Positions 24,657 to 40,681 of a stretch of 64,000 nucleotides of DNA are shown piece by piece. Source of the DNA: Candidatus Methanosphaera massiliense. GTDB taxonomy: Archaea; Methanobacteriota; Methanobacteria; Methanobacteriales; Methanobacteriaceae. The position numbers were made by a program, and so were the translations under genes. The notes beneath the pieces were generated by a model, which was not told the DNA's origin, made no database searches, and was given only the letters and a program-made list of their open reading frames with translations. The stretch spans positions 560,501-624,500 of the forward strand of contig NZ_JARBXM010000001.1 of assembly GCF_028890305.1 (NCBI RefSeq). The letters are read 5' to 3'. Positions within the stretch are counted from its first letter, which is position 1. Every line of letters begins with the position of its first letter.

Positions 24657-24690
24657 TATTATTATATTATATTAAAGTTGTATATAATAG

Positions 24691-24918
24691 ACGTGTATTT
24701 CAAGTGTAAATATTTGTTTTTCCTATCAAAACAAATAGTGAGACGTACATTGCAAGTGTAATGTTTTTTTCATAGCAAAAATTTTCAAATAGTGAGAGGT
24801 ATTTTTCAAGTGTAAAATTTTTTTGTACCTAACGCAAAAAGTTAAGACGTTTATTTCAAGTGTAATTTTTTCTGAATAAAAAATTTTGAAAAAAATAAAA
24901 TTAAATTTCAAGTGTAAA
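24691..24918 (+). repeat. Left cluster of origin recognition boxes (five copies)
   Basis: Cores at 24698-24710, 24750-24762 (one mismatch), 24804-24816, 24854-24866 and 24906-24918, spaced about 50 bases apart. The first four carry an upstream extension related to GTGAGACGTA, which is most complete in the second copy; the fifth has only the core. All read TTTCAAGTGTAA on the plus strand. The near-constant spacing (52, 54, 50, 52 bases) suggests a regular arrangement of Cdc6/Orc1 molecules. Confidence 0.9.
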
Positions 24919-25271
24919 AATTTTTGAAAAATATTTTTAAAAGTATTACTATAATACTTATAAGTATTTTTATATTACTTTTTTATTAAATTTTTAAATT
25001 AAATTAAATTAAATTAAATAATAAAATAATAAATAATAATAAATAGAATAATAAAATAATAATAAATAATAAAATAAATAATAAATAAATAATAATTAAT
25101 AAAATAAATAGAAAAATAAATAAAAATAATAAATATTATATAATAAAAATTATTAATTTTCTTTTTTATTAATAAAAAAGAATTATTTAACTTTATTTTT
25201 AGCTAAAAACCATTTTTAAACATTTTTATTTTTCACTTTTTGCGGAATTTTAGTGGGGGGTACCTTTTTAA

Positions 25272-25388
25272 TATACACTTGAAATATACGTCTCACTCTC
25301 TAAACCTTTTTATAGTATAAATTAGAAATAAAATATTATTAATTTTTCACTTGAATTTCTAATATTACATTTAAAATTATACTTGAAA
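25272..25388 (-). repeat. Right cluster of origin recognition boxes (three copies)
   Basis: Inverted copies: a full one at 25272-25296 with core TACACTTGAAA plus the ATACGTCTCACT extension, a degenerate one near 25345-25359 and TTATACTTGAAA at 25377-25388. The last is only 25 bases from the cdc6 start codon, so the initiator may also regulate its own gene. Confidence 0.85.
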
Positions 25389-25413
25389 TTAAACTACATA
25401 ACCAGGCGATTAT

Positions 25414-26568
25414 ATGACAAACATTTTTGAAGATTTAAATGACAGAAAAACAATATTCAAATCTAAACAATATTTAGATCATCGTTTTATTCCAGAAACA
25501 CTGCCACACAGAGATGAAAAAATTAAATCAATTGCAAACTATTGGGTTGAAGCATTACAAAAAAACACACCACCTGACATAACTATCTATGGTAAAACAG
25601 GAACTGGTAAAACAGCAGTAACCCTATACGCTAAAAAACAGTTAGAAGAAGTAGCATCAAAACGAAATTTAAACATCAGAATCGAATACATAAGATGCAC
25701 TGATTACAATACAGAATATCAGATACTAGCAAGATTATGTCAACAATTAGGAAAACCAGTACCGTACAGAGGATGGACCAAAGCAGAAGTAGTCAACACA
25801 TTTAGAAATTTATTTAAAAAGAATATATTAGGTGAAGATTTAATACTAATCGTAATATTAGACGAACTTGATGTTATACTCAAAAATGATGGAGACAGTA
25901 TTTTATATACATTAACTCGAACTGATAATGTATCTATAACATCCATAAGTAACTATGTTGACTTCAAAAGTTTTATTAAACCAAAAGTAAAAAGTAGTTT
26001 AAGAGACCGGGAAATTGTATTTCCTCCATACAATGCACAGCAACTAATAGATATTCTTAAAGAAAGATCACAACTATCCTTCAAAGAAGGAACAATAGCT
26101 GATCCAGTAATACCTTTATGTTCAGCATTAGCAGCAAAAGAAGAAGGAGATGCAAGATATGCTCTTGATTTATTAAAAACTTCAGGTGAAATAGCAGATG
26201 AAAAAGGGGCAGATGTTGTAGAAGAAAGCTTTGTTATAGAAGCTAAAGATCGTATAGAACACAATAAAATTATTGATGTTGTAATGACTTTACCTATTCA
26301 ACAACAAAGAGTATTACAAGCTATAACATATCTTACAAATAAAAAAGAAGAAATCACATCTGGAAGATTATACGAAATATATGAGGACTTAGCTAAAAAT
26401 GATAAAGTATCATATCGTAGAATCTTCGATTTTATCAATGAATTAGAAATGCTTGGTTTAATTTCCGCAAATACAATATCTCGTGGTAGAGGAAAAGGAA
26501 GAACAAATATCATCACATTACAATGTGATCCAGAATTAATTGAAAAAGCATTAGTATTTAAAGATTAA
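25414..26568 (+). CDS. cdc6: Cdc6/Orc1 replication initiator
   Basis: A 384-residue AAA+ ATPase that binds origin boxes and loads the MCM helicase. Walker A is GKTGTGKT (G60-T67), Walker B is VILDELD (D150, E151), sensor 1 follows, and the C-terminal third is a winged helix ([16 protein letters not shown], then [20 protein letters not shown]). It lies immediately beside the origin, as the origin-linked Cdc6-1 does in most archaea. Boxes on both sides of the gene suggest autoregulation. Confidence 0.96.
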
Positions 26569-31835: not shown

Positions 31836-34079
31836 TTATTCATCTCTGAATTCTCTTTGTGTTACATCTATAATATTCGTAGCTGTTTTTTCTCCTATTC
31901 CTTCTACTTCTTTTAATTCATTTTTTGACGCATTTATCATGTTTTTAACAGTTTTAAAATGTTTGAGTAGACTTTTTGCTGATACTGGTCCTATTCCTGG
32001 TAGGCTTTCTGTTATGAATAATTGCTGTTCTGGTAGTGTAACTGGTTTTGTTTGTGTTCGTATACTTACTGGTTTTTTGTTGTCTTTGTCCTGTTCTCTT
32101 AATGCTATTCTTTTTAATAGGAATGCTGTGTCGGTTTCACTTTGAGTTTGAATAATTGGTATTCTGAAGTCAAGTGCTATAGATGCAAGTGCACCTCTTA
32201 TAGCATTTGGATGAAGGAATGTATGATAAATGTTTTCACCTTCAATTATCATAAGGGGTTTTCTACAATTAGTGGTTAATTCTTTAGCTTGTTGATATAA
32301 TCTTTTATCTGTTATTGACTTGCTGAAATCTTCAACAGTTTTTCTTTCAATAATAATATCATCAGTAATTTGATAATCACCAACACCCATACTTTTTACT
32401 TTTATCTCACAATTGATTTTATCTAATTCTCGCATCATGTTAGAATTTTTCTCACGATAATCAACATATATAGTTACTTCAGCATTATCTGGGTCTGTGT
32501 TGATATTATAAGATTGTACTTCTTCATTATTAGCCACGTAGTTATCAAGTGAAATATTATTCTTGTTGTATGCATTGTAGATGTTATTCTTCATTGCTCT
32601 TTCTTTTCTTTGACTAGCCCAGTAATATGATTCATCAAGTGTACCTTTAGTCATTAATATATACATTTCACCTTGATGTTTACGTCCTGTTCTTCCTTTT
32701 CTCTGAATCATTCTAATTTCAGATGGCACTGGTTCATATAATATAACATAATCTACAGCAGGTATATCAATACCTTCCTCTGCAACACTAGTTGAGATAA
32801 GCACGTTGTATTCATCATTCTTAAATTTATCAATTACTTCAATCTGTTTTTTCTGACTTAATCCCTTATCATTATCTCGTGATGCCTGACCATAAAATCT
32901 GATAGATTTAATATCATTTTTTTCACAATGTTCATGAATACTTTTTGTGGTATCTCTAAACTGACTGAATACTATAATCTTATTCTGATTATTTTCATCA
33001 AGAATTTGTTGAATTAACTCCATTAATCTTTTCATTTTTGGATGATCAATACCTCTATCCACATATTTTCTTGTTAACATCACAGCTTTATTAAACTTAT
33101 AATCATTTTTCAATGATTTAGATGCTTTTGTTTTCTTCTTTTCAAGTTTATTAAAGTAATTATTCAATGTTTTAATACTCTGAGTTTCAAGAAGTTCTTG
33201 AGAATGCATAATATTTATTACTTCAGTTAATATTGAAATTCCTGTGAAATATTCTTTTTTAGGATTATTACTTGAGGCTATTTTTTGTTGAAGTCTTTTT
33301 TGTTCAACAAGAATTTCTCTTTTTGATGGTTTAGCTATTGAATCTATAATACCTAATTTTTTAAGAGTTTTTAATCTTATTTTCAGAGTTTCTGCTAATA
33401 AATCTTTTATTTCTTTTAATTCAGGTGTTAGTTTTACCTTTATCCATTTAGTCTGCACTTGATTAAAGTATGGTGCTACGTCAGGGTCATCTTCACTTTT
33501 AATTATAACATTATTTATGTAGATGTTATGGGATACTTCTTTTATTTTTTTCTCTTCCCATCCTGGACTAGCTGTTAAACCTAATACTAGTTGGTCTTTA
33601 GCTTGCTGAATATACTTTTGTGCTAAGTATACATAGGAATATGATCCTACTGCGTGATGACATTCATCAAAGACAATTAAAGAAACATCTTTAAAATCAT
33701 ATTCACGTGATATAATATCAGATTCTACAGTTTGTGGTGTAGCACAAATTACTCTATTTTCCTTCCATAATTCTTTTCTATCAGCAGGTTTGTTATTTCC
33801 TGTTATACTAGTTACTGAAGTATTTAAAAATTTTTTAAAGCTTTTTTCATGTTGTAATGTCAGTGGTTTACTTGGTGCTAATATTAAAATCTTACTATTT
33901 TCATAGTTTTTTAGTCTTTCAGCTGATATTAAAGCTGCAATTACTGTTTTACCCATTGCAGTAGGTGCTATTATCATTGTGTTACCTTTTTTAAGTACAC
34001 TCATAGCTAAATTCTGTTGGTATATCCTTCCTTCTATCGTATTTTTATTTATGTATTTATGATCTATCCAATTTTTCAT
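31836..34079 (-). CDS. hef: Hef helicase-nuclease (FANCM/XPF family)
   Basis: A 747-residue fork-processing enzyme. The N-terminal SF2 helicase has APTAMGKT (residues 38-45), FDECHHA, LTASPG and the motif VI stretch QRKGRTGRKHQGE. The C-terminal ERCC4 nuclease carries VDYREKNSNMMREL and GDYQITDDIIIERKTVEDF with the GDnxERKxxxD signature intact, and two helix-hairpin-helix motifs (LPGIGPVSAKSLL, VEGIGEKTATNI) end the protein. Hef cuts and unwinds stalled replication forks. Its promoter side borders the 1.6-kb repeat region. Confidence 0.96.
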   Translation of the reverse strand: MKNWIDHKYINKNTIEGRIYQQNLAMSVLKKGNTMIIAPTAMGKTVIAALISAERLKNYENSKILILAPSKPLTLQHEKSFKKFLNTSVTSITGNNKPADRKELWKENRVICATPQTVESDIISREYDFKDVSLIVFDECHHAVGSYSYVYLAQKYIQQAKDQLVLGLTASPGWEEKKIKEVSHNIYINNVIIKSEDDPDVAPYFNQVQTKWIKVKLTPELKEIKDLLAETLKIRLKTLKKLGIIDSIAKPSKREILVEQKRLQQKIASSNNPKKEYFTGISILTEVINIMHSQELLETQSIKTLNNYFNKLEKKKTKASKSLKNDYKFNKAVMLTRKYVDRGIDHPKMKRLMELIQQILDENNQNKIIVFSQFRDTTKSIHEHCEKNDIKSIRFYGQASRDNDKGLSQKKQIEVIDKFKNDEYNVLISTSVAEEGIDIPAVDYVILYEPVPSEIRMIQRKGRTGRKHQGEMYILMTKGTLDESYYWASQRKERAMKNNIYNAYNKNNISLDNYVANNEEVQSYNINTDPDNAEVTIYVDYREKNSNMMRELDKINCEIKVKSMGVGDYQITDDIIIERKTVEDFSKSITDKRLYQQAKELTTNCRKPLMIIEGENIYHTFLHPNAIRGALASIALDFRIPIIQTQSETDTAFLLKRIALREQDKDNKKPVSIRTQTKPVTLPEQQLFITESLPGIGPVSAKSLLKHFKTVKNMINASKNELKEVEGIGEKTATNIIDVTQREFRDE

Positions 34080-34222
34080 GCTAAATAAGTGTTTGTTTTA
34101 TATTGTTTATTAATTATGTTTTTTTCATCGATATTTTATTCATAATAATAACACTGTGAGTTATTAATAGACAATGTTTAGTTATATACCTATAGAAACC
34201 TATATATACTAGTAAATATAAT

Positions 34223-34397
34223 CTATTATTGTGAATAAGTATAAAGAAAAGAAATAATTTCTAAAATATTTATAAACAATAATAAATAAAATTAAAAAAT
34301 AGATAATAAGTAAATTAATATTAACATTGTATATTAAAATAAATATAGAAAGATATATATAATAACAAAATATATTTATTATTGTGAATAAGTATAA
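34223..34397 (+). repeat. Direct repeat pair upstream of hef
   Basis: TATTATTGTGAATAAGTATAA occurs near 34225-34245 and again at 34377-34397, 152 bases apart, each preceded by AAATATA. The copies agree over about 20 bases within otherwise unrelated AT-rich DNA. They lie 145-320 bases upstream of the hef start and could be binding sites or promoter copies. Confidence 0.65.
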
Positions 34398-34480
34398 TTA
34401 AATTAAAAAATTTCTAAACAATTAACTCTATTAATTGTTGTAATATACAAATATTAACAAAGAAAAAAATTTCACATAAA

Positions 34481-35203
34481 GTGATGAAAATGAAGCGATG
34501 AAAAAAATTATTCTTAAAATAACGAAACAAAAAAAATATGAACAACTTATCACAAGCATATCACAGTTGTGATGAAAATGAAGTAAATACAATAAAGAAA
34601 TTATAACATATAATACAAAAAAACTAACATTATAATAAATGAAAAAATAGATGAAATAATTTTTTGTAGTCGTGATTAAAATGAAGAACTAAAAACAACA
34701 ACTTTAAATCGAATATTCTATTACAACATTACAAATTACAATATAATTAAGATAAAATAATAATTCAAATAATCATTTAGAGCGTGGTTGATATGAAGTG
34801 AGTCATATACTTAAGGAATCAAATAAATTAAATAAAATAATAAGAAAAAGGAATTTCAAGTAATAAATTATAGTGACAGTGGTTTATATGAAGTGAATCT
34901 TTTAATTAATGAATTAAATCATTGATTAAATAAAAAAAAGATCTAAAAACATAAAAAAAACAAAACATAAAAAAGACACTAAAATAAAAAATTCAAATTT
35001 AAAACAAAAAATAATCACATATGTTGTGATGAAAATGAAGTGAAGGTTAATAAAATATATAATTAAAGCTATATCGTAAATATAAATAAAAATTACTATC
35101 AAATATTCTAGTCGTGATAAAATGAAGAACTAAAAACATTTATCCTTAAAAAAATATTTCCAAAATAAATCACCACGACGAGAAGTGATGAAAATGAAGC
35201 GAT
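34481..35203 (+). repeat. Array of eight start-stop repeats (GTG-n6-ATG-AAG-stop)
   Basis: Copies begin at 34481, 34569, 34672, 34784, 34879, 35026, 35114 and 35185, spaced 71-147 bases. The typical unit is GTGATGAAAATGAAG. In every copy ATG AAG is followed by a stop directly (TAA once, TGA three times) or after one codon (CGA or AAC, each twice). Seven of eight also keep GTG in frame three codons before the ATG. TCAC precedes and pairs with GTGA in copies 1, 2, 6 and 8. The plus-strand element before the ATG resembles local ribosome sites such as GGTGA. Confidence 0.8.
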
Positions 35204-35630
35204 AGAATAAAATATTATAAACCTAATCTAAAAACTCTTCAAAAATAATAATGAAAGATAAAATAATACCTTATAAGTATATATGACTAATAAATAAAAT
35301 CTTTTCGGTGATAATTTAAATCAATTAATGATATTTATTAAAAAATATCTATAAAATAATCTCTTAATAAAAAAAATCAATAGAATTAAATCAATAAATT
35401 AATTAAACTACCATATTAAATAAAAAGAAGAATACCTGAACCTATAAAAGTAGTATAATTAATAAAAAGAATTGTTTACTTCTCTATTGATTTCATGTTT
35501 TATAATTAATAGAAATAATGATATTAAAAACATGTAAAAAAAGTTGTGTTAAAAAAAAGTATTGACGTGGTTGAAAAATACTTTTCTCAAATAAATTTCA
35601 TAATTTGTTAATAAAACAAGGAAAAAAGGA

Positions 35631-35689
35631 AATATAAATTACAAAATCCCGGTGTAAAGGTAGGATTCCTTTATATTGTAATTTATATT
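35631..35689 (-). terminator. Nested hairpin after acnX
   Basis: A perfect 14-bp inverted repeat (35631-35644 with 35676-35689) encloses a 31-base loop that itself contains AATCC/GGATT arms (35645-35649 with 35663-35667) and an alternative TAAAGG/CCTTTA pairing. On the minus strand it lies 30 bases after the acnX stop and is followed by a T-rich run, so it may end or protect the acnX mRNA; a structured small RNA is the alternative. Confidence 0.55.
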
Positions 35690-35718
35690 CTCTAAACTAT
35701 TTTTTTTATATTTAAAAT

Positions 35719-36918
35719 TTATTCAGATATCATATCAATTAAATTCTCTACAGTATCATAAACAACATCTAACTTACACATGTTAGGCACATAATTTGCT
35801 GCTTTTGCTGAATTAACTCCAATAACTTCATAATCAAGTTCTTCAATAGGAGCTACAACCATACATGTATCAGAAACTATTTTTCCACCAGCTTGTTCTA
35901 TAATATCAAGATATCCGCATTGTTGACTTATTGCTTTTATAGCTTTAGATGTGCAAATCCATAAGTCTTTAACTAGTTTTTTACCTTTAACAAGTTGAGT
36001 TACTTTCTGAATTTCAGTTATTGACGCATGTGGACATCCGAGACATACAAGATCAGGAATTTTATCTGTAGTAGATAACTTACTAATAGTATCCTTGATT
36101 ATAGTTTCATCAATATCTATTGTTTCAAGTTCATCGAATGATTCATGATTTCTTGCAAACTCGGCTTCTGGAGTAATTCCTTCTACATGGTATTGACTTA
36201 CAGCTCCACTACTTGCGAGAGCTGCTCCTAATAGTTTTAGATTATTTCTTCCAGGATTACTTGTAAGTTTAAAGTATGGTTTTTTATCATTAACTATTTG
36301 TCCAACATAGTATCCTAGTGCTCCGATTTCTGCTTCATTATTAAAATCATAGGATACATCAAATATCATGTCAGCTACTCTATTTTCTAAGATATGATTT
36401 CCATAGTATGGTGTTCTTCCAACTATTGCTGCTAGTAATGCACTTGGACCACCTTCACGGTTTGTTCTAGCACCTATAACACTATTTACATAGCATACAG
36501 CTGATGATTCGGACCATGATACATGATCATTCAGCATTGGAGTATTACCTATTAGGTATGGTGTACATGTACATGTGCTCATTACACCTATACTTTCATA
36601 TCCTTTTATTATATCAATCTGTTTTTTAGTGAATTCTTCGCTGAATCCTAATTCTTCCCAGTTTTCAATATCTACTCCAGCAGGGTTAAGCATGGTTTCT
36701 AGTGTAACATCTGCTTTTTTACCTAAATCAACTACAAAATCCAGTCCCGCATCACCAATAGTTTTGTATGATACTCCAGATACTTGTGCAGATGTAATTG
36801 GTATCATTTTTTCTGCATCATATATTTTTCCTAGACTTACTAGTATTTCCATACATTCTGCTTTTCCTTCACCATATTCACCATTATACATGTCTTCTTC
36901 ATACTTTGTAAGTTCCAT
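35719..36918 (-). CDS. Aconitase X catalytic subunit (DUF521), probable phosphomevalonate dehydratase large subunit
   Basis: A 399-residue protein of the aconitase X family. Characteristic stretches are ITSAQVSGVSYKTIGDAGL, STCTCTPYLIGN, ARTNREGGPSALLAAIVGRTPYYG and LVCLGCPHASI, with Fe-S cysteines in the second and last. In archaea the large plus small aconitase X subunits dehydrate mevalonate 5-phosphate in the modified mevalonate pathway for isoprenoid lipids. The small subunit is not adjacent. The ATG at 36918 is preferred to a GTG three codons earlier; the sequence before it (GTGGTAGATATG) resembles repeat copy 4 at 34784. Confidence 0.85.
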   Translation of the reverse strand: MELTKYEEDMYNGEYGEGKAECMEILVSLGKIYDAEKMIPITSAQVSGVSYKTIGDAGLDFVVDLGKKADVTLETMLNPAGVDIENWEELGFSEEFTKKQIDIIKGYESIGVMSTCTCTPYLIGNTPMLNDHVSWSESSAVCYVNSVIGARTNREGGPSALLAAIVGRTPYYGNHILENRVADMIFDVSYDFNNEAEIGALGYYVGQIVNDKKPYFKLTSNPGRNNLKLLGAALASSGAVSQYHVEGITPEAEFARNHESFDELETIDIDETIIKDTISKLSTTDKIPDLVCLGCPHASITEIQKVTQLVKGKKLVKDLWICTSKAIKAISQQCGYLDIIEQAGGKIVSDTCMVVAPIEELDYEVIGVNSAKAANYVPNMCKLDVVYDTVENLIDMISE

Positions 36919-36950
36919 ATCTACCACTCATATCTTATTATATTTTTTTC

Positions 36951-38321
36951 CTAGTTGTTATTTATTTGATATTCTACCATTTCATCTACTAGGTGTATGA
37001 AATTATCTTTTTGGTTAGCAGGGATTGTTGCACCAGCTGCTATGTTATGTCCACCACCAGATCCATTGAAGTTGTTAGATGCTTGGTTCATTATAACACC
37101 TAGATTAACACCTTGTTCTACCATATTGTCTGTTGTTCTAGAGGATACTTTGATTAAGTTATCCATCTTCATCAGACTTAACACAGGTTTATCTGGAAGT
37201 ATGCCAAGATCTATACCAATACTACTTACTGCTGCTGCAACTTTTTTAAGTTCTTTGTCTTCTGTGTATATGTATTGGATATTTTCTTCTTGAATACTGC
37301 CTTCTCTTTTTATCCACTCAATTCCATTCTGCATATTACTACTGTACTTAGATAATAATGATTCTGCATAGTCTATTTGTGCGTATTTTCCTAGTTGTAT
37401 GCTTAGTGCTGCTGTGTATTCTTTGTTTTTACCACATGCATTTAATAGATTAGAATACTCTTCAATATTTGTTAGTTCTCTTCTGATATTAGGTATAGTG
37501 TATATTTCGCCATATATATTCTCATTAATATTGATTAATTCATTTTTCAATGTTTCATATTCTTCTTTAGATAGTTGACTTAGTAGCTTATCTTTAGGAA
37601 TGTTATGATTATCTAAGAATTGTTTTGTTTCATCAATATTTCCAGATAATCCTTGAATTACTGGGTTGTATGTGTATGTTATTGCTTTGTATAATGGTTG
37701 ACTGTTAGAGTATGCTAGTTTTAATTCGTCTTTGATTTCCATTGTATTATGTTCAATGGCTTCATCTAAAATTAGTTTGTTTATGCCTGTTGGACCATGT
37801 TTGAATTGCATATCACCATATGCACCAGTTAATGCTAATCCTGCTAGTTCATAGAATTCATAGCCATGCACTGATAAATATGAAAGTCCAGAACCACTAA
37901 CATCTTTGGTTCCATCAATATTAAATATATGAGGATTCACGTGTATTATCTGCTTATTATCCACTTGTATTTCTGGGTCTGTACCTTCGGGTACTTGATG
38001 ATGGTCTGCTATTATCACATCACCCTTGAGTTTAGAAATACTGTCCAGATTTCCACTTCCCATATCTGAGAAAATAAATAGTTTATATTTGGATTTGTTA
38101 AGTTCTTTAACGTTACTGTCTCTAAGACGTGGTAATATTGTTGTATGGAATCTTCCACCTGCCTTCTGTATTGCGTTAGCAAATATTCCAGCAGATGTTA
38201 GTCCATCAGCATCATTGTGAGATATTAATCTCACAACATGCTGTTTTTCAATGTGTGATTTAAGTAAATCACAAGCTTCGTCAGCTCTATTTAACAAGTA
38301 AAGCTGCTGTTGTTGGGTCAT
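36951..38321 (-). CDS. DHH-family phosphoesterase, archaeal RecJ-like
   Basis: A 456-residue single-strand nuclease or phosphodiesterase. The DHH domain shows [30 protein letters not shown] and [10 protein letters not shown]; the C-terminal DHHA1 domain ends with [15 protein letters not shown]. Archaeal RecJ homologues act with the GINS/MCM complex or in RNA turnover. ATG 38321 is chosen because GGAG lies just ahead, although this makes the start overlap the rpsO end by 35 bases, so expression is coupled to rpsO. Confidence 0.9.
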
Positions 38322-40534: not shown

Positions 40535-40681
40535 TTTTTTCACCAAAATATAATTGTTTAATTATTAATGTCCTTTTCATAGAAAAAGAAATCCTATTAT
40601 ATTATTATAATATAGATTTTAAATATAATAATAATTATTAAAAATTATTAAATTAGATAAACAAAGATGGGAGAAATTTAT

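Follow-up and report, generated by a model that had tools for sequence, protein, structure and literature searches.

The gap between hef and acnX in this Methanosphaera genome carries eight plus-strand copies, all in the same orientation, of the motif GTGrTnnAnATGAAG, each of which runs into an in-frame stop no more than two codons after the ATG-AAG. The array is real and unusual, and its conserved core bears a translation-start signature. We tentatively read its units, at somewhat less than an even chance, as start-stop minigenes that would load ribosomes on a plus-strand RNA.

The hef-acnX gap and its eight units

The window (the whole stretch of 64,000 nucleotides that was analysed) corresponds to G000:C1:560501-624500 of a 1.79-Mb genome. 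Within it, a gap of 1,639 bp (34080-35718) with a G+C content of 17.7% separates hef from acnX, both named on the basis of the original prediction and inspection of the protein sequences. The only open reading frames inside the gap encode 53 and 58 aa (ORF list with a minimum of 50 aa). The following features were located:

31836-34079, minus strand: hef, left border of the gap
34171-34270 and 34324-34423, plus strand: two AT-rich copies of 100 nt, 76% alike; both contain a TATATATA run and the same TTATTGTGAATAAGTATAA
34481-34501, plus strand: unit A1, GTGATGAAAATGAAG then CGA TGA (M-K-R-stop)
34569-34586, plus strand: unit B1, GTGATGAAAATGAAG then TAA (M-K-stop), with TCAC arms upstream at 34550 and 34561
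34672-34692, plus strand: unit C1, GTGATTAAAATGAAG then AAC TAA (M-K-N-stop)
34784-34801, plus strand: unit D1, GTGGTTGATATGAAG then TGA (M-K-stop)
34879-34896, plus strand: unit D2, GTGGTTTATATGAAG then TGA (M-K-stop)
35026-35043, plus strand: unit B2, GTGATGAAAATGAAG then TGA (M-K-stop), with an ATCACA/TGTGAT hairpin
35114-35133, plus strand: unit C2, GTGATAAAATGAAG, one base shorter with GTG at -8, then AAC TAA (M-K-N-stop)
35185-35205, plus strand: unit A2, GTGATGAAAATGAAG then CGA TAG (M-K-R-stop), with ATCAC/GTGAT arms
35623-35710, strand not assigned: hairpin with T runs on both sides (fold z of -2.6)
35719-36927, minus strand: acnX, right border of the gap

All eight units of the original prediction, which had described them as GTG-n6-ATG-AAG in a gene-free region of about 1.6 kb, were recovered, as was the arrangement of their stop codons: directly after AAG in four (TAA once, TGA three times) and one codon later in the other four (CGA-TGA, CGA-TAG and AAC-TAA twice). 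GTG is in frame with ATG in seven of them, as had also been claimed, the unit at 35114 alone deviating by a missing base. Recomputed spacings between successive units (88, 103, 112, 95, 147, 88 and 71 bases) reproduced the irregular range of 71-147 on which the prediction had set the array apart from CRISPR; a CRISPR array was rejected on this spacing and on a 15-bp core with four variable positions.

Eleven of the 15 core columns are invariant across the eight copies, and mean pairwise identity is 1.0 in these columns and 0.25-0.29 at the first base outside the core on either side; isolated A/T positions farther out (-13, -16, -17, +16 and +20) are also high in identity. Paired by eye, the units form subtypes A (34481, 35185), B (34569, 35026), C (34672, 35114) and D (34784, 34879), their succession along the array being A B C D D B C A. 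The core begins with GTGAT at -9 in five units, GTGAT at -8 in one and GTGGT at -9 in two.

The claim that four copies carry TCAC/GTGA arms held as far as the arms are concerned, since four of the eight have TCAC in the 20 bases preceding them, while the hairpins that they were proposed to form fared less well. Arms that would mask the Shine-Dalgarno (SD)-like sequence are plain in B1 and B2, possible in A1, A2, D1, D2 and C2, and almost absent from C1. Their total pairing, a level that 49 of 3000 shuffles and, with pool draws, 10 of 3000 also attained, is modestly above controls, and single-unit folds gave z values above -1 in six of the eight units and below -2 in B2 and A2 only. The 3' arm of the hairpin covers GTGAT, the motif being found in this arm or outside the hairpin and not in the loop. 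Support for SD-masking hairpins is thus weak.

The strand that bears the array is A-rich (AT skew of +0.32 across 34440-35230) and adjoins minus-strand genes, the flanking kilobases 33001-34000 and 36001-37000 having skews of -0.24 and -0.20. This is compatible with plus-strand transcription without proving it. The paired 100-nt copies (34171-34423), both of which contain TATA and lie left of the array, represent a possible promoter or leader region; the 19-mer TTATTGTGAATAAGTATAA occurs exactly at 34226-34244 and 34379-34397 (G000:C1:594726 and 594879) and nowhere else in the genome. At the opposite end, the hairpin at 35623-35710 with its T runs may mark the end of acnX and possibly that of a plus-strand transcript. 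To the right of the array acnX lies on the minus strand, and the next plus-strand ORF of at least 180 aa is at 40667. A scan for sigma-70 promoters returned 22 against 20.5 expected and was disregarded, the model not being meant for archaea.

Likeness to genuine starts and the in-frame stops

The core is best read as the ordinary translation-initiation context of Methanosphaera, to judge from its likeness to coding starts. At the acnX starts of 16 genomes (this one and 15 others; G017 was left out because its acnX match is partial, and the borders of acnX and of the slot between the two genes were taken from tblastn ends), GTGGT occurs at -9 in six, GTGAT at -9 in six (one of these before TTG), GTGAT at -8 in one, and neither motif in three. 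The variation between GTGAT and GTGGT and between -9 and -8 at these starts thereby mirrors that among the units. Of 48 ATG starts within the window, four have GTG at -8 and three at -9, and none of the remaining offsets between -4 and -15 has more than one case. In 36 other starts of the same genome GTG lies at -9 in six, -10 in five and -8 in one, in a sample that is biased to -9 since most of its loci were collected for that pattern; the -9 register is not exclusive, as the five cases at -10 demonstrate. The resemblance to local starts that had been predicted stands in register and in the GTGAT/GTGGT match with acnX, but not in the GGTGA of some real starts, as no unit has a G directly before GTG.

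Pairing with the assumed anti-SD sequence (the complement of the 16S 3' end) places the units at the 93rd-96th percentile of all ATGs in the window and at about the 67th-73rd percentile of 138 gene starts, a pool that includes hef, acnX and recJ orthologues together with loci chosen for core matches. The 16S of this genome was looked for and not found.

Outside the array, GTGnnnnnnATGAAG has 22 matches in the genome, five of which open frames of 162-327 codons. When core matches in relatives were inspected, 8 of 13 lay at coding starts as judged by frame length (79-1290 codons, six of the frames running past the end of the compared stretch), several of them with a signal-peptide-like N terminus. 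In G016 and G019, a secreted-type protein family with signal-peptide-like N termini begins with exactly the letters of the C1 core. Matches away from coding starts include one frame of 47 codons (L124) and three that end after 2-4 codons and lie within longer genes read in other frames (L130-L132). A lone GTGATGAAAATGAAG in G014 (L126, match at 992), outside the listed ORFs, stops after four codons and may be a start-stop element or chance. At three contig ends of G019 (L121, L122 and L123) there are almost identical coding starts, GTGATTAAAATGAAGAGAATAAAA, whose products have a signal-peptide-like N terminus, and a multi-copy family may have broken the assembly there. The invariance of AAG exceeds the needs of ribosome binding and would fit an effect on tRNA-Lys or a protein ligand.

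All eight units reach a stop in frame 0 no more than two codons past ATG-AAG, and none of the eight does so in either of the other two frames, against a background of 0.21 per site. Furthermore, members of one subtype differ in their stop codon in A (TGA/TAG) and in B (TAA/TGA). The original prediction had cautioned that shared ancestry reduces the independence of the stops, and rightly so: because the copies form four subtype pairs, the eight stops were counted as approximately 4-6 independent events, which gives a P of approximately 0.0001 to 0.02 depending on the choice of null. Given this ancestry, and since three sense codons or fewer precede a stop at 5 of the 14 plus-strand ATGs of the gap that lie outside the cores, the stop pattern constitutes moderate evidence. 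All seven matches of GTGNNNNANATGAAG in the window fall in the array, against 0.16 expected from shuffles; exact GTGATGAAAATGAAG occurs four times in the whole genome, always in the array; and a generic start-stop pattern has 15 matches over both strands of the window, eight of them in the array. These three patterns were all picked after the copies had been seen.

Conservation of the core and distribution of the array

Within the four subtype pairs, 2 of 60 core positions are mismatched (one of these being the deletion), as opposed to 29 of 80 in the 20 bases downstream (Fisher P of 8.6e-7). Agreement of the downstream flanks is 14/20 in A, 13/20 in C, 15/20 in D and 9/20 in B, versus a random mean of 7.4; pairs A, C and D therefore look duplicated, while B is not above background there. 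That the core was retained while the flanks decayed argues against dead relics, and the suggestion that the units are decayed gene ends consequently fits poorly. Short-tract conversion may also keep the cores alike, and the subtypes were partly defined on the core itself. The two genomes of the species are identical from 34159 to 35482, so that comparison between strains is uninformative in either direction.

While hef is present in all 20 genomes of the genus, the array lies beside it in two, both of the same species, with G005 and G006 covered only for short stretches upstream of this gene. No such cluster was found with one-mismatch and two-codon start-stop patterns in the 18 other Methanosphaera genomes (70-99% complete, some of them drafts). 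Among the 149 genomes of the order, 23 (this one included) contain the exact 15-mer, with more than two copies only in the two of this species, and by this search the array was not found in the 147 others. Viral contigs gave 10 single matches and no cluster. RUG genomes are rumen-derived, and one of them (RUG12825, of this species) was the single stretch with three matches among 72 matching stretches of GTDB genomes, the other 71 having one each; in a scan of 185 loci (1.0 Mb in total), every locus with a cluster belonged to this species.

A sequence model (R1, at most 150 candidates scored per genome) run over 31 genomes placed the eight copies among the best, with no other cluster among the matches listed; among these, three G019 matches on three separate contigs outscore four of the copies. 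Nor was a second cluster found in the genome itself, either at one mismatch or among the R1 matches listed. A BLASTN search of the genus with 34140-35640 as query yielded AT-rich matches of low score outside the species (best E of 2.5e-12 among the matches listed). The best of these, 34253-34439 against G003:C1:60483-60660 (71%), is AT-rich and may be of low complexity; the matched segment may, judged by its distance from hef, belong to the origin region of G003. The array is species-restricted within the genomes searched, by searches based on this core, which a diverged array with a different core would escape. Copies elsewhere that lack the ATG-stop pattern, which the original prediction had named as counting against it, occur as single cores, often at coding starts; no clusters of them were found in the genome, genus or order with the patterns used.

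The hef-acnX slot itself is a hypervariable hotspot among relatives. Its length in 16 other genomes with both borders ranges from 108 to 4,347 bp, G005 and G006 being set aside as their contigs extend upstream from hef by just 338 and 183 bases, and several of the slots house unrelated genes. By eye, these comprise (L021, L024, L025, L030, L031 and L032) a transporter-like membrane protein of 498 aa, a surface-type protein of 389 aa, glycosyltransferase-like ORFs of 515 and 609 aa, an ORF of 128 aa and, in three relatives, a similar membrane protein of 82-87 aa. The slots of L026 (9937-10080), L036 and L029 contain plus-strand ORFs of 47, 53 and 54 aa, pointing in the same direction as the array, which are mutually unrelated by eye.

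Possible roles and known counterparts

The start-stop reading gains from the GTG-to-ATG register that matches real starts, from the interchange of GTGAT and GTGGT, and from stops that vary inside subtypes A and B, whereas the hairpins add little. On this reading, we infer that a plus-strand RNA would start left of 34481 and end near the hairpin before acnX. Each unit would consist of an SD-like GTGAT or GTGGT, a spacer of 3-4 nt, AUG-AAG and a stop, at which a ribosome would bind, initiate, make a peptide of 2-3 residues and stop, the unit thereby serving as a ribosome-loading or holding point and not as a protein gene. The likeliest effect would be local, repeated ribosome occupancy protecting an otherwise untranslated AT-rich RNA or sustaining its elongation; alternatively, initiating ribosomes or tRNA-Lys might be titrated in trans. 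The most specific form of the proposal appears unlikely: a dedicated archaeal RNA, so far in one Methanosphaera species, whose eight minigenes load ribosomes without making protein, either as a reserve of initiating ribosomes or tRNA-Lys or in order to shield or extend the RNA, as a translation-level counterpart of CsrB. If the units do load ribosomes, they would form a multi-site minigene RNA without an attached gene and hence a testable case of translation that serves a non-protein purpose.

To our knowledge, no regulatory RNA of this sort has been described in Methanosphaera. Lambda bar is one bacterial two-codon minigene or mini-ORF. Others are mg2 of axe-txe and the LEE mini-ORFs. Like the units, such elements combine an SD-like sequence with an AUG that is followed by one or two codons and a stop. 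In PMC8708949 a two-codon minigene is reported to need active translation, and is proposed to protect an AU-rich leader, the shielding being ascribed to occupancy by ribosomes. All eight units have a stop within the approximately 2-6 codons of such elements, and their SD-like GTG lies at -9 or -8 as at the window and acnX starts (with the anti-SD sequence assumed). However, where PMC8708949 describes single or paired elements that precede a gene, the array has eight, is archaeal and intergenic, and leads into no cis-regulated gene, as acnX to its right lies on the minus strand and no plus-strand gene follows directly. Eukaryotic start-stop (AUG-stop) uORFs, as far as the sources describe them, similarly have a start almost directly before a stop, but are elements of coding-mRNA leaders. 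Among the matches listed, open-access literature on archaeal minigenes, start-stop elements and sponge RNAs held no such array, and that on Methanosphaera transcriptomes or RNA-seq and intergenic regions returned nothing.

Other explanations were weighed against the start-stop reading. It is rather unlikely that the units are neutral local repeats, that is, gene-start fragments duplicated in the slot and functionless today. The hypervariability of the slot with its differing inserted genes, the restriction to a single species, the past duplication visible in the flanks of three subtype pairs, the identity of the C1 core with the start of the secreted-type family and the low cost of early stops in AT-rich DNA would all be in keeping with this, but the core is nearly identical in pairs whose downstream flanks show 36% mismatch, and its 11 invariant positions over eight copies stand amid flanks near background.

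A CsrB-like sponge, in which a plus-strand noncoding RNA would offer eight start-site mimics that titrate a protein binding start regions and the stops would be incidental, is unlikely. According to PMC10729762, CsrB has 22 GGA motifs, 14 of them in predicted loops, and sequesters up to nine CsrA. As with CsrB and CsrC, a start-region-like motif is present many times on one strand; the irregular spacing, a core longer than a ribosome needs (AAG being invariant) and the short hairpin arms adjoining four copies would also suit a sponge. In contrast to those RNAs, which that paper describes as bacterial with GGA in hairpin loops and CsrA as partner, the array has another motif, another structure and no known partner or candidate binding protein; its motif is never in a loop, its hairpins are weak and C1 has almost none, and a sponge does not predict frame-0 stops. 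Binding of the 15-bp directional motif as DNA, by a regulator, a partition factor or a chromosome-organising factor, is the least probable of these explanations. The motif is sharp-edged, repeated, non-palindromic and in a single orientation, and a likely cdc6-linked origin lies approximately 9 kb away, as the original prediction of an origin-near DNA-binding array had stated; that array is nevertheless without the CAAGTGTAA repeats of the origin, its spacing is irregular and no multiple of the helical turn, no second cluster was found in the genome at one mismatch or among the R1 matches listed, and neither the start register nor the frame-0 stops are predicted by DNA binding.

Further classes of element were also considered. 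Archaeal C/D box sRNA genes contain box C (RUGAUGA) and box D (CTGA); GTGATGA in four of the eight units matches box C, and this class was rejected as there is no CTGA on either strand of 34440-35230. A scan of 33900-36000 against Rfam gave no match at E up to 5. An origin (ORB) or iteron array was rejected since CAAGTGTAA, present in five copies at 24701-24909, is absent from 34080-35718. These five direct repeats belong to an origin-like region (24689-25390) beside a cdc6-like ORF (25414-26568), where together with an inverted TACACTTG at 25274 they flank an AT-rich core, and they resemble the mini-ORB repeats of the Methanothermobacter origin.
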